Below are positions 52,111-57,696 of a stretch of 64,000 nt of DNA, in pieces (the first letter of the stretch is position 1; the number at the start of each line of letters is the position of its first letter). This DNA is from Candidatus Sphingomonas phytovorans. Its GTDB lineage: Bacteria > Pseudomonadota > Alphaproteobacteria > Sphingomonadales > Sphingomonadaceae. The position numbers and the translations under genes are program-made. The notes under the pieces are model-generated. The model did not search any database and was not told the origin of the DNA. It was given only the letters and a program-made list of their open reading frames with translations. Where the stretch lies: NCBI GenBank assembly GCA_029202385.1, contig CP119314.1, positions 188,501 through 252,500 of the forward strand, read 5' to 3'.

Positions 52111-53670
52111 TCATTCGGCTTCGCGACCGTCGAAGAAACAGCCTGTCGTCAGTATCAGGAACAGGAAACCGAAATCGGCACTCGGGAGGGCCTCGATATC
52201 GCCGGCAAGCGCGGCCAGCAGGCGGTCGCGGTGGATCATCTCCGGGTCGAAGATGGGTGATCGCAGGAGCATCGCCTGCAGGTAGTCGCGGTGCTCGATG
52301 ATGCCCCGCAGTGCGACATCGCGAAAGCTTTCCTTCACATAGCGGTTCTCGAAGACCGGGTTGCCAAGGCGTTGGCTCAGCAGGCGCCGCAGTACCGTTC
52401 GGTCGCGGCGATATTCCCACGGCAGGCTTGCGGCGAAGCGCGCCAGCACCGGGTTGATATAGGGGTAGATCGGCCAGATCCCCCGTCGCAGCAGGCGCTG
52501 CGATCGACCCGCGGCCGATAGCCAGCTCGTATCGGCCACCAGACCCCGCAGCCCCGCACCCGCTCCTTCTCGCGCGACCTCGCGCCCATGTTCGGTGAGG
52601 TAGGCATGTCCTCCCGGCGGTGACTCGCCCTCGTCGTCCGATTCTTCTCCCAGATACACCGCATAAAGTTCGTCTCCGCCAAACCCGCTGACGAGTGTAT
52701 CGATGCCGGCGCGGTAGAGCAGGTCGAAGATGGTTTCGAAAATCTCCGGATAGCTTTCATCCTGCGGCCAGACGCCGAACTGGCCGCGCCGCGCGCCGCG
52801 CGGGCTGAACGGGAGGAAACGGCTCGCCGGCAAGGCGATATCCTCGAACCCGCAATGATCGCACAGCAACTGTCGCCGCTCGCGTTGTGCGTCGCCCATC
52901 GCGCCGTCGAATTGCGCACCGTAGCTGAGCAACCCTGTCCCCCATATGTCGGCCGCGGCCAGCCCGACCAGCGCCGAATCCATGCCGCCGCTGAGTTCCA
53001 CCGCCAGCTGTCGCGGGTCGACGTCGCGCGCCGCCAGCAGTGCCTTGACCGTATCGAACAGGAGGTTTTCGGCCGATGCTCCTTGGGACAGGGCCTGCGC
53101 GCCCGGCATTTCCGCCGGGGCGGGCAGGTGAGCTTCGATGCTCTGGCCCCGTGCAACGAGACGCGCGCCCGCGAGGGAGCGATACAGTCCCGTGACGAGC
53201 GTTTCCGGAGTATAGGGTGCCAGCCCGGCGACATGGGCCATCAACCCGGGCCAATCGATCGGGGCTTGGGTATCGCGCAGGAGCCGCGTGCAATCCCAGT
53301 CGATCGCGAGACGCCCCGAAGCGGCGCGGAGATAGACTGGCGCGGAATGTATCTGCGACGTTTCATAGGATATGGTGCCGTCGACCCTGTCGAGGGTCAG
53401 GAGCGCCCAGTCCAGCAGGTGGGACCGGACATCGTCCAGCCGCTCGGCAATCGCGCGCCCGTCATTGGGGCGGATATGGTCGAGACCCTGAGGATCGTCG
53501 CGAAACCGCTCCATGCAGGCAACGGAGATCGTCATATCGGTCTCGATCACGAGACTGCGCAACATCCTGTGCGCGAACGGGGTGATGCGGGAACTGCCTA
53601 ACAAAAGGCTCCCACCGATGATGTCGACGGGAGCCTTCAGGTCTGAAAACGCGATGTCGGCCGCGAACAT
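52111..53670 (-). CDS. Asparagine-synthetase-like ATP-dependent amide ligase without glutaminase cysteine
   Basis: 519 aa. The synthetase half is intact: the PP-loop ELSGGMDSALVGLAAADIWG (about residue 225) and the SGFGGDELYAVYL motif. The N-terminal 200 residues are shaped like a class II glutaminase but begin MFAADIAFSD instead of MCGI, so the nucleophilic cysteine at position 2 is missing. That combination is the one seen in lasso-peptide cyclases (McjC-like). The gene directly follows a 51-codon peptide gene. No transglutaminase-like peptidase, RRE or ABC exporter is near. Cyclisation of the peptide by an amide or ester bond is a possibility, not shown. Confidence 0.88.
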   Translation of the reverse strand: MFAADIAFSDLKAPVDIIGGSLLLGSSRITPFAHRMLRSLVIETDMTISVACMERFRDDPQGLDHIRPNDGRAIAERLDDVRSHLLDWALLTLDRVDGTISYETSQIHSAPVYLRAASGRLAIDWDCTRLLRDTQAPIDWPGLMAHVAGLAPYTPETLVTGLYRSLAGARLVARGQSIEAHLPAPAEMPGAQALSQGASAENLLFDTVKALLAARDVDPRQLAVELSGGMDSALVGLAAADIWGTGLLSYGAQFDGAMGDAQRERRQLLCDHCGFEDIALPASRFLPFSPRGARRGQFGVWPQDESYPEIFETIFDLLYRAGIDTLVSGFGGDELYAVYLGEESDDEGESPPGGHAYLTEHGREVAREGAGAGLRGLVADTSWLSAAGRSQRLLRRGIWPIYPYINPVLARFAASLPWEYRRDRTVLRRLLSQRLGNPVFENRYVKESFRDVALRGIIEHRDYLQAMLLRSPIFDPEMIHRDRLLAALAGDIEALPSADFGFLFLILTTGCFFDGREAE

Positions 53671-53694
53671 GGTCGAACGGCCGTTCTTTCGGGA

Positions 53695-53850
53695 TCAGCC
53701 GCCGCTGCCGCGTCCTGTGAAAATCGCGTCATAGGGTTCATAAGGAGTCTTGCGGGCGACCGTTGTGTTCTCGCGCGCCGTTTCCCGGACGATCGCCTTG
53801 CCGAGCATGTCAAATTGCATCCGTAAGGCTTTCGAATCGACAGACTTCAT
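53695..53850 (-). CDS. 51-residue precursor-like peptide
   Basis: ATG 53850 preceded by AAGGAGAG; stop TGA at 53695, 24 bp before the asparagine-synthetase-like gene. The peptide is basic and helical in its first 28 residues (KALRMQFDMLGKAIVRETA), then TTVARK, and ends in a C-terminal part PYEPYDAIFTGRGSGG rich in Glu, Asp, Tyr and Gly. No known lasso precursor family was recognised. Leader-like front and small-residue acidic tail fit a RiPP precursor. Below the usual ORF length cut-off. Confidence 0.7.
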   Translation of the reverse strand: MKSVDSKALRMQFDMLGKAIVRETARENTTVARKTPYEPYDAIFTGRGSGG

Positions 53851-53985
53851 GGCTTCTCTCCTTGAAGGGTGCCGAATGCTACGGCCGGGTCATGTCGTCC
53901 GCAATGCGATCTGGGTCCATTTTGGGGTAGCCAGGTCACGGCAGATCCCGCCTTCCGGCTAACGCTCGCCAAAGGCTGTACCCGC

Positions 53986-57162: not shown

Positions 57163-57696
57163 TTAGTGGCAGCAGGTATTGGTTGTCCAAATGACAGCTC
57201 CTGCTGAGTTTCTAATTACAACATTGCCATCGTTTTGAACGGTTAGTTTTGCTCCTGGGTTTCCGTATGTCTTAGATGACCAGATTGCAGAATTTGTGTT
57301 GTTCTCGTACGCGACCAGATTTCCATCAGTTTGAAAGGCCAGGCGCATCGCATAAAGATAGTTTTTATTGGTTCTAGAAGTCCAGAGAATGCTGGATGAG
57401 CCGCCATTTTCGAGTCCCCCAGGATAATAGCGCAAGATGACATTCTCATCATCTTGAACATAAAGGTGGAATCTATGATCTGGAGATAAAAATCCACCTG
57501 GAGCAGAATTTACTTCAATCAGGGCTTGTGCAGTCGTTTCGCATTGCAGGCGAGGGCTGGTTCCGAGAACGGCGGAGCAGCCAGCTGTTTGCTCTGGTAT
57601 TGGAGATCCAATGACTTGAGCTTCAGATTCTGATCCAAATACTGCTAGAGATAGAGAAATTATTGACAGTGAAGTTATAAAATTTTTTTTCATCAT
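57163..57696 (-). CDS. Exported bulb-type (monocot mannose-binding) lectin protein
   Basis: 177 aa, GGAG 6 bases before the ATG. Signal peptide ([21 protein letters not shown]). One B-lectin domain with the three expected sites: [18 protein letters not shown] (exact QxDxNxVxY) and QNDGNVVIR, with W-containing strands between. Four Cys. Lectin-like bacteriocins (LlpA) and carbohydrate-binding adhesins share this fold, but LlpA has two domains. AT-rich gene in a foreign-looking island; the role may be sugar binding or antibacterial. Confidence 0.85.

Follow-up and report, generated by a model that had tools for sequence, protein, structure and literature searches.

A putative minimal RiPP unit in Sphingomonas: a short peptide and an asparagine-synthetase-like enzyme proposed to link lysine to aspartate

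What is the role of a gene for a 51-residue peptide that lies just ahead of a gene for an asparagine-synthetase-like (AS-like) enzyme? This question is raised by a locus of Candidatus Sphingomonas phytovorans (genus Sphingomonas), within a stretch of 64,000 nucleotides (positions 188501-252500 of a 5.45-Mb contig) that is referred to here as the window. In the initial annotation, the pair was regarded as a stripped-down or novel unit of the kind that makes ribosomally synthesized and post-translationally modified peptides (RiPPs). The data discussed below support this view, and both the pairing of the two genes and the pattern of residues in the peptide core are beyond chance. With a probability of roughly 0.6, we consider that the two genes form a minimal RiPP unit in which the enzyme joins Asp41 of the peptide to the side chain of Lys34 as a macrolactam. 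We also favor, if slightly less firmly, the broader suggestion that this is a new RiPP class, in which one PP-loop synthetase crosslinks a Lys side chain to an Asp located six or seven positions downstream and generates a lasso-size ring without exposure of the N-terminus. Such units, whose cores are single or in tandem, are present in Pseudomonadota, Myxococcota, and Actinomycetota, and some on symbiosis plasmids of pea-nodulating rhizobia are positioned just before nifH. The features of the locus are as follows.

53695..53850, minus strand: gene for the precursor peptide (51 aa), identified by its open reading frame (ORF) and translation, matches to the family profile, and an excess of synonymous changes.
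52111..53670, minus strand: gene for the AS-like enzyme (519 aa, no Cys2), the proposed Lys-Asp macrolactam synthetase, assigned on the basis of PF00733, the structure model, related folds, and its branch in the tree.
53857..53863, minus strand: Shine-Dalgarno-like AAGGAGA of the peptide gene, read in the sequence before the peptide ATG.
53752..53850, minus strand: leader region, residues 1-33, with a helix predicted at residues 6-27 (conserved Leu16, N-terminal pattern, AlphaFold2).
53698..53751, minus strand: putative core KTPYEPYDAIFTGRGSGG, residues 34-51, with an inferred boundary (K-x5/6-D in 29/29 rows).
53749..53751, minus strand: codon of Lys34, the proposed amine donor, invariant in the 9-row alignment.
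53728..53730, minus strand: codon of Asp41, the proposed acyl donor, invariant in the 9-row and 29-row alignments.
52975..52992, minus strand: PP-loop SGGMDS, residues 227-232, with invariant positions in the 25-row family alignment.

The two ORFs, the strong ribosome site, and the gap of 24 bp between the peptide stop and the enzyme start, all reported in the initial annotation, were confirmed. When the peptide ORF of the window is compared with that of Sphingomonas QA11, which belongs to the same species, eight codons differ synonymously and three non-synonymously, and 9 of the 11 base changes are at the third position. Because these changes are mostly synonymous, the ORF is, judged by its sequence, behaving as a coding sequence. 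An enzyme profile identified intact members of the window subfamily in 8 of 295 genus genomes (E < 1e-200), plus one gene in two pieces (G088) and one decayed copy (G061), and in the named collection it identified Sphingomonas QA11, Sphingomonas ERG5, and Myxococcus dinghuensis. Of the subfamily loci that were read, 10/10 have a related small ORF (48-51 codons) ahead of the enzyme, nine from Sphingomonas (the window's own, QA11, ERG5, G033, G047, G219, G176, G155, and the split G088) and one from Myxococcus; G061 was not among the loci searched for the upstream peptide. In the distant loci with a whole family enzyme, a candidate peptide is present in each one examined, either upstream or, in G227, downstream. 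Hence, lack of conservation of the peptide beside homologs of the enzyme, which had been named as an outcome that would speak against a RiPP unit, is not what was found.

Is the peptide itself conserved in a way that reveals its function? A peptide-family profile run against 5.8 billion proteins returned 25 members including the window's own (threshold E <= 10; all at E <= 2e-5), which together with four peptides read from loci give an alignment of 29 rows. Among these rows 28 are distinct (one locus peptide is also the C-terminal part of a database protein that starts earlier), and the last-18 segments come in 22 distinct forms. Leu16 and Asp41 are conserved in this alignment, while Lys34, invariant in the 9-row alignment, is offset by one column by MAFFT in the larger one. 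A direct search of the last 22 residues detected K-x5/6-D in every row; in 2000 shuffles, the mean was 3.0 rows and the highest count 10. The residues around the Lys and the Asp vary (e.g., KTPYEPYD, KVFEGDD, KVNYGED, KINEGND, and KWTEGGD), and the C-terminus varies in both length and sequence, which speaks against C-terminal amidation. The AlphaFold2 model of the peptide has a helix at residues 6-27, with the rest poorly ordered (mean pLDDT 65.9 overall, 77 for residues 1-10, and 88 for residues 11-20). Two RiPP traits are therefore present: a gene-encoded precursor adjoining a modifying enzyme, and a conserved leader followed by a shorter putative core with fixed residues.

The same spacing recurs in distant relatives, both on plasmids and in other Sphingomonadaceae. 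A tblastn search found distant enzyme relatives in 46 plasmid records (26 Rhizobium, 13 Bradyrhizobium, three Streptomyces, two Mesorhizobium, one Xanthomonas, and one Aminobacter), and a repeat plasmid search with a Gluconacetobacter query gave 47; 21 plasmid records, many of them near relatives, were fetched out of both lists. The small upstream ORF carries K-x5-D in five of the first six plasmid loci (Xanthomonas KPYLGDD, Streptomyces KPAGTED, Mesorhizobium KRRLPGD, Bradyrhizobium KGPFPSD, and Rhizobium KGGKPGD), and in the sixth it is carried by a nearer, unannotated ORF (KMPGGGD). The K-x5-D pattern was fixed at this point, before the remaining fifteen records were fetched, and it was then found in a nearby ORF, annotated or not, in 8/8 and subsequently 7/7 of the later loci. 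At the plasmid locus L084, the motif is located outside the annotated small ORF, in another ORF. Cores also differ within a genus, as in KAPFPND of B. elkanii versus KGPFPSD of B. septentrionale.

To quantify the pattern, 24 representative loci were scored by the last 28 residues of same-strand ORFs of 20-299 aa that end <=300 nt before the enzyme. K-x5-D is present in 19/24 and K-x6-D in three (the window, ERG5, and G047), compared with 1-9/24 for other spacings; by subtraction, the remainder are Mesorhizobium L-2-11, where an overlapping ORF carries the motif at a greater distance from its end, and G1049, which has K-x5-E. Random places in the same loci gave a mean of 1.0 and a maximum of 3/24 (200 draws), shuffled tails a mean of 2.9 and a maximum of 9, and upstream of other PP-loop (AS-like) genes from this and other genomes K-x5-D was found in 3/74 (81 loci supplied, seven without a usable ORF). 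The 24 loci include close relatives, and approximately 17 of them had been seen before the pattern was fixed; of the seven unseen, six have K-x5-D and one, G1049, has K-x5-E. A looser earlier test of whole ORFs, long upstream genes included, gave K-x5-D in 21/24 and other spacings in 6-14/24, with a shuffle mean of 9.9 and a maximum of 18, and was replaced by the version restricted to the last 28 residues of ORFs below 300 aa. G227 was kept out of the test because its precursor, which is downstream with none upstream, had been located by looking for the motif itself together with a GG site.

What type of enzyme accompanies the peptide? Its sole Pfam match is PF00733 (28.9 bits vs a cut-off of 21 in hmmscan), and it does not appear among the 12 listed matches when the genome is searched with PF00733, which marks it as divergent; an NCBIfam scan gave no model above cut-off. 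As initially noted, it retains SGGMDS and GFGGDE but lacks the N-terminal Cys: residue 2 is Phe, and no Cys is present at this column of the 25-row family alignment (22 letters, three gaps). The glutaminase nucleophile is thus missing. Residues invariant among the 25 rows include Ser227, Gly228, Gly229, Asp231, Ser232, Gln262, Gly329, Gly331, Gly332, Asp333, and Trp399. For the structure model (pLDDT 89.9), the top Foldseek matches are beta-lactam synthetase (E 5e-15) and TsnB9 (6e-15), and VIA-align places TsnB9, AsnB, and beta-lactam synthetase close together; no PDB lasso cyclase was among the VIA-align matches listed, an absence that carries no weight. The nearest solved sequences by profile are beta-lactam synthetase (E 8e-6), carbapenam synthetase CarA (0.003), and AsnB (0.005). 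Judged by the PP-loop SGGxDS and the modeled fold, the enzyme is a member of the asparagine synthetase superfamily.

Within this superfamily, the family forms a group of its own. In an unrooted tree (three long branches flagged, G1049 among them), 24 family enzymes are separated from 32 other AS-like proteins, eight of which are from this genome, by a 100/100 branch; relative to the motif test, the tree includes G227 and R. hidalgonense, and the test G088 and Rhizobium 3841. The best NCBIfam match of seven of the eight other AS-like proteins of the genome is a lasso or an ikarugamycin/albusnodin macrolactam cyclase, below cut-off, while the eighth passes the XrtA amidotransferase cut-off and has Cys2. 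The lasso cyclase model NF033535 did not match the window enzyme at E <= 1; the eight other proteins scored 114-310 bits (six), 39 bits (one), and 248 bits (XrtA-type) against a cut-off of 525. A scan of seven distant family enzymes gave matches to the lasso cyclase model in four (24-36 bits) and to the ikarugamycin/albusnodin model in five (23-37 bits), far below cut-off. Going by unverified ORF starts, the seven cyclase-like proteins of the genome exceed the window enzyme in length by approximately 90-160 aa. A housekeeping asnB, considered initially as the other outcome that would speak against the unit, was rejected: the enzyme lacks Cys2, is below every NCBIfam cut-off, and is split from the Cys2 enzyme of the genome, and from its other AS-like proteins, at 100/100.

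How, then, might the enzyme act on the peptide? AS-like enzymes adenylate a carboxylate and pass it to an amine, and beta-lactam synthetase and CarA close a lactam between an amine and a carboxylate of a single substrate. For PesC, adenylation of a carboxylate and its transfer to an amine have been described (excerpt of PMC13060819). In the order of steps that we infer, the helical leader of the peptide would bind the enzyme, which, as expected from its family, would spend ATP on adenylating the side-chain carboxylate of Asp41. Glutamine-derived ammonia would not take part; instead, the attacking amine would be the side chain of Lys34 in the same peptide, and the product would be a Lys-Asp isopeptide ring, with 29 atoms for the K-x6-D of the window peptide and 26 for the K-x5-D of most relatives. 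By atom count, the former equals the ring of a Gly1-Glu9 lasso and the latter that of a Gly1-Glu8 lasso, and the family may combine the ring size of lasso cyclases with a side-chain amine. A Lys-Asp isopeptide would be the simplest product because the Cys is missing, the core has one conserved amine and one conserved carboxylate, and the C-terminus is variable. Moreover, since the amine would be donated by a side chain rather than by the N-terminus, cyclization would not have to wait for a leader peptidase, which would account for the absence of such a peptidase from the unit. If the product is exported and trimmed, unlinked genes would be responsible here, and in some relatives ABC exporters (C39-type or other) encoded next to the pair. 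The initial suggestion of a macrolactam or other amide is in this way narrowed by the conserved pattern to a proposed link between the Lys and Asp side chains.

The fixed spacing would also suit a lasso peptide with Lys as residue 1, where an unlinked B-type peptidase cuts before Lys34 and the freed alpha-amine is joined to Asp at position 7 or 8. Lasso peptides carry the acid at position 7-9, and their leaders have Thr at -2 with Ile, Val, and Ala as exceptions (excerpt of PMC10368454). An acid at core position 7 or 8 agrees with the first rule, and Ala(-2), a residue reported for some putative lasso precursors, is found in 27/29 rows. The search for distant B proteins proposed in the initial annotation gave a divided answer: a PF13471 B-type match is present somewhere in 10 of the 13 unit-bearing genomes, in G155 on the unit's contig approximately 13 kb off, and it is absent from G341 (99% complete), G472 (100%), and G019 (86%). 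The spacing, the Ala, and the PF13471 matches speak for such a lasso. On the other hand, Thr(-2) is found in 0/29 and 0/16, tandem cores are unsuited to a lasso, the GG site in the G227 and G472 precursors would leave residues before the Lys, and the enzyme is shorter than the cyclase-like proteins and on the separate side of the 100/100 branch. A B-type leader peptidase in the cluster, a lasso trait, was not found among the subfamily neighborhoods, no B-type gene of at least 80 aa being common to them; for the RiPP recognition element (RRE, B1), the comparison likewise detected no shared neighbor of at least 80 aa, with smaller ORFs outside the comparison. Collectively, we regard a lasso as unlikely.

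It is conceivable that Lys34 is a recognition residue only and that the enzyme uses free ammonia to amidate or nitrilate the side chain of Asp41 or the C-terminus. AS-like RiPP enzymes are known to have non-lasso roles, with TsrC and ScdTA amidating the C-terminus and PesC forming a nitrile; PesC accepts ammonia too (excerpt of PMC13060819), and TsnB9 and AsnB are among the close folds. However, this scenario is doubtful: the glutaminase Cys is absent, the C-termini are variable, and the family-wide fixed Lys-Asp spacing would be left unexplained. The presence of a phosphotransferase gene in rhizobial units, twice together with a GNAT gene, would be compatible with an enzyme that puts another small carboxylic acid on Lys34, or another amine on Asp41, to give a toxin or signal of a new type, but the Lys and the Asp are both fixed and no further gene is common to the window-subfamily loci, making this outcome quite improbable. 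Since no product is known, the pair might not be a maturation unit at all, and the small ORF, ahead of an ordinary amidotransferase, might encode a peptide with a regulatory role. Such an arrangement is highly improbable in view of the conserved leader and core, the tandem cores, the linked exporters of some units, and the conservation of residues at the peptide's distal end.

The preferred reading, a Lys-Asp macrolactam synthetase, can be compared with known systems. Beta-lactam and carbapenam synthetases act on small-molecule substrates. The solved structures 1JGT and 1Q15 are nearest to the window enzyme by profile and among its nearest folds, but share 14-17% identity with it in the Foldseek alignments. 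Graspetide precursors in some cases have repeated cores, and their enzyme is an ATP-grasp ligase. Side-chain macrolactone and macrolactam rings are a feature of graspetides (excerpt of PMC13097080), and a ring is here predicted from K-x5-D, whereas the window enzyme is PP-loop/AS-like (adenylating) with only PF00733 matches and not ATP-grasp. Lasso cyclases (McjC-type, NF033535) are also AS-like (excerpt of PMC13060819) and form an isopeptide to Asp/Glu at 7-9 of a gene-encoded peptide (excerpt of PMC10368454), and the proposed ring size is the same. In contrast to these, the window family lacks a shared B-type partner, is approximately 520 aa long, and is on another branch, its proposed donor is the Lys side chain, and it has relatives with tandem cores. 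TsrC, ScdTA, and PesC are AS-like enzymes that act on RiPP precursors, but they modify the C-terminal carboxylate, and PesC takes nitrogen from glutamine or ammonia and is clustered with an MNIO and an HExxH enzyme (excerpt of PMC13060819). Finally, the window enzyme differs from glutamine-dependent asparagine synthetase by lacking the catalytic Cys2.

Multi-core RiPP precursors repeat core elements in tandem. The genome of the window also contains a second unit (L062:7721-9939; G000:C1 ~2131.7-2133.9 kb), with a distant AS-like enzyme, in which one precursor has the tandem cores KGTAGQD, KRISGTD, and KGTAGQD. In G341 (L060:7430-10009), a 296-aa precursor ending in six KGxAGQDAQNRRN units is followed by the enzyme; this precursor has no Pfam or NCBIfam match, a plasmid search with it as query gave no match, and it is perhaps a protein with a crosslinked tail. 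The tandem units share an element of the K-x-x-x-G-x-D type. The G472 (KNLGGVD) and G227 (KGTRGYD) precursors have GG-type leaders, and their enzymes are beside C39-peptidase ABC exporters and HlyD proteins. The statement in the initial annotation that no exporter lies nearby therefore holds for the window, where none was found next to the pair, but does not extend to some of the distant relatives.

Several plasmid units have additional neighbors. The order of N-acyl homoserine lactone (AHL) synthase gene, pair, and nifH is seen on pRL10 of Rhizobium johnstonii 3841, where the annotated enzyme is short (366 aa), and in Rhizobium sp. WSM4643 (L076:4176-7482 and L080:2769-6082). Downstream of four rhizobial units is a phosphotransferase gene (L074:6063-7486, L078:4707-5525, L084:4253-5140, and L085:4473-5833), which at L074 is of the APH type according to Pfam, and the L074 and L085 units also have a GNAT acetyltransferase gene. 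A role of the phosphotransferase and GNAT genes in tailoring or self-protection is possible.

What surrounds the pair in the window and its relatives? The neighborhoods of the ten loci (eleven records, eight lineages) were compared for predicted genes of at least 80 aa; across lineages at E 1e-8, only the enzyme is common, plus three pairs at 26-28% identity. The downstream DUF418 gene and the upstream purL were considered as parts of the unit and rejected, as they are not shared beyond the window's own species; to judge by these comparisons, both are probably bystanders because no neighbor of at least 80 aa is conserved across lineages. The gap between the peptide and enzyme genes contains a palindrome, GAACGGCCGTTC (53671-53694), which recurs in QA11, was absent from the other gaps that were read, and could lower expression of the enzyme. 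Searches for a sigma-70 promoter or a terminator near both genes gave no match. At 57163-57696 (minus strand), a 177-aa protein has a sub-threshold match to NF033557 (lectin-like bacteriocin; 63.9 bits vs a cut-off of 275). The copy in G061 (G061:C9:249524-250260) is in pieces and has stops, a sign that some lineages are losing the enzyme gene.

With regard to distribution, the profile from the first alignment (E 1e-20) added only G472 among 396 order genomes, and in 398 phylum genomes it found nothing besides the window's own genome. A broader profile (1e-15) had matches in 136/385 class and 94/339 phylum genomes. Apart from the window's genome, G1049 alone was conspicuous among them (E 3e-81); most of the other matches were partial and fell in longer proteins. 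The partial matches to longer proteins were taken as outside the family as a group, not individually inspected, and some of those fetched were used as controls. When the 25-row profile was used for a wider protein search, the 50 proteins reported had all been found in the earlier protein search.

RiPPs and AS-like peptide cyclases are already known, and the units discussed here would probably be a RiPP class of their own if the chemistry is proven. In open-licence PMC full text, neither the pair nor an AS-like synthetase of side-chain macrolactams was found described. A 2026 preprint on nitrilobacillin names lasso cyclases, TsrC, ScdTA, and PesC, and refers to approximately 300 AS-like RiPP candidates as uncharacterized (excerpt of PMC13060819). 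If the proposed reading is true, the family would provide a macrolactam-forming enzyme that needs only the peptide and ATP and that acts within a chain and on repeats. It would add a reaction to those of AS-like RiPP enzymes and, by giving rings of lasso size, would be of help in peptide engineering. Orphan genes annotated as "asparagine synthase-related," some of them on symbiosis plasmids, would then become directly testable.
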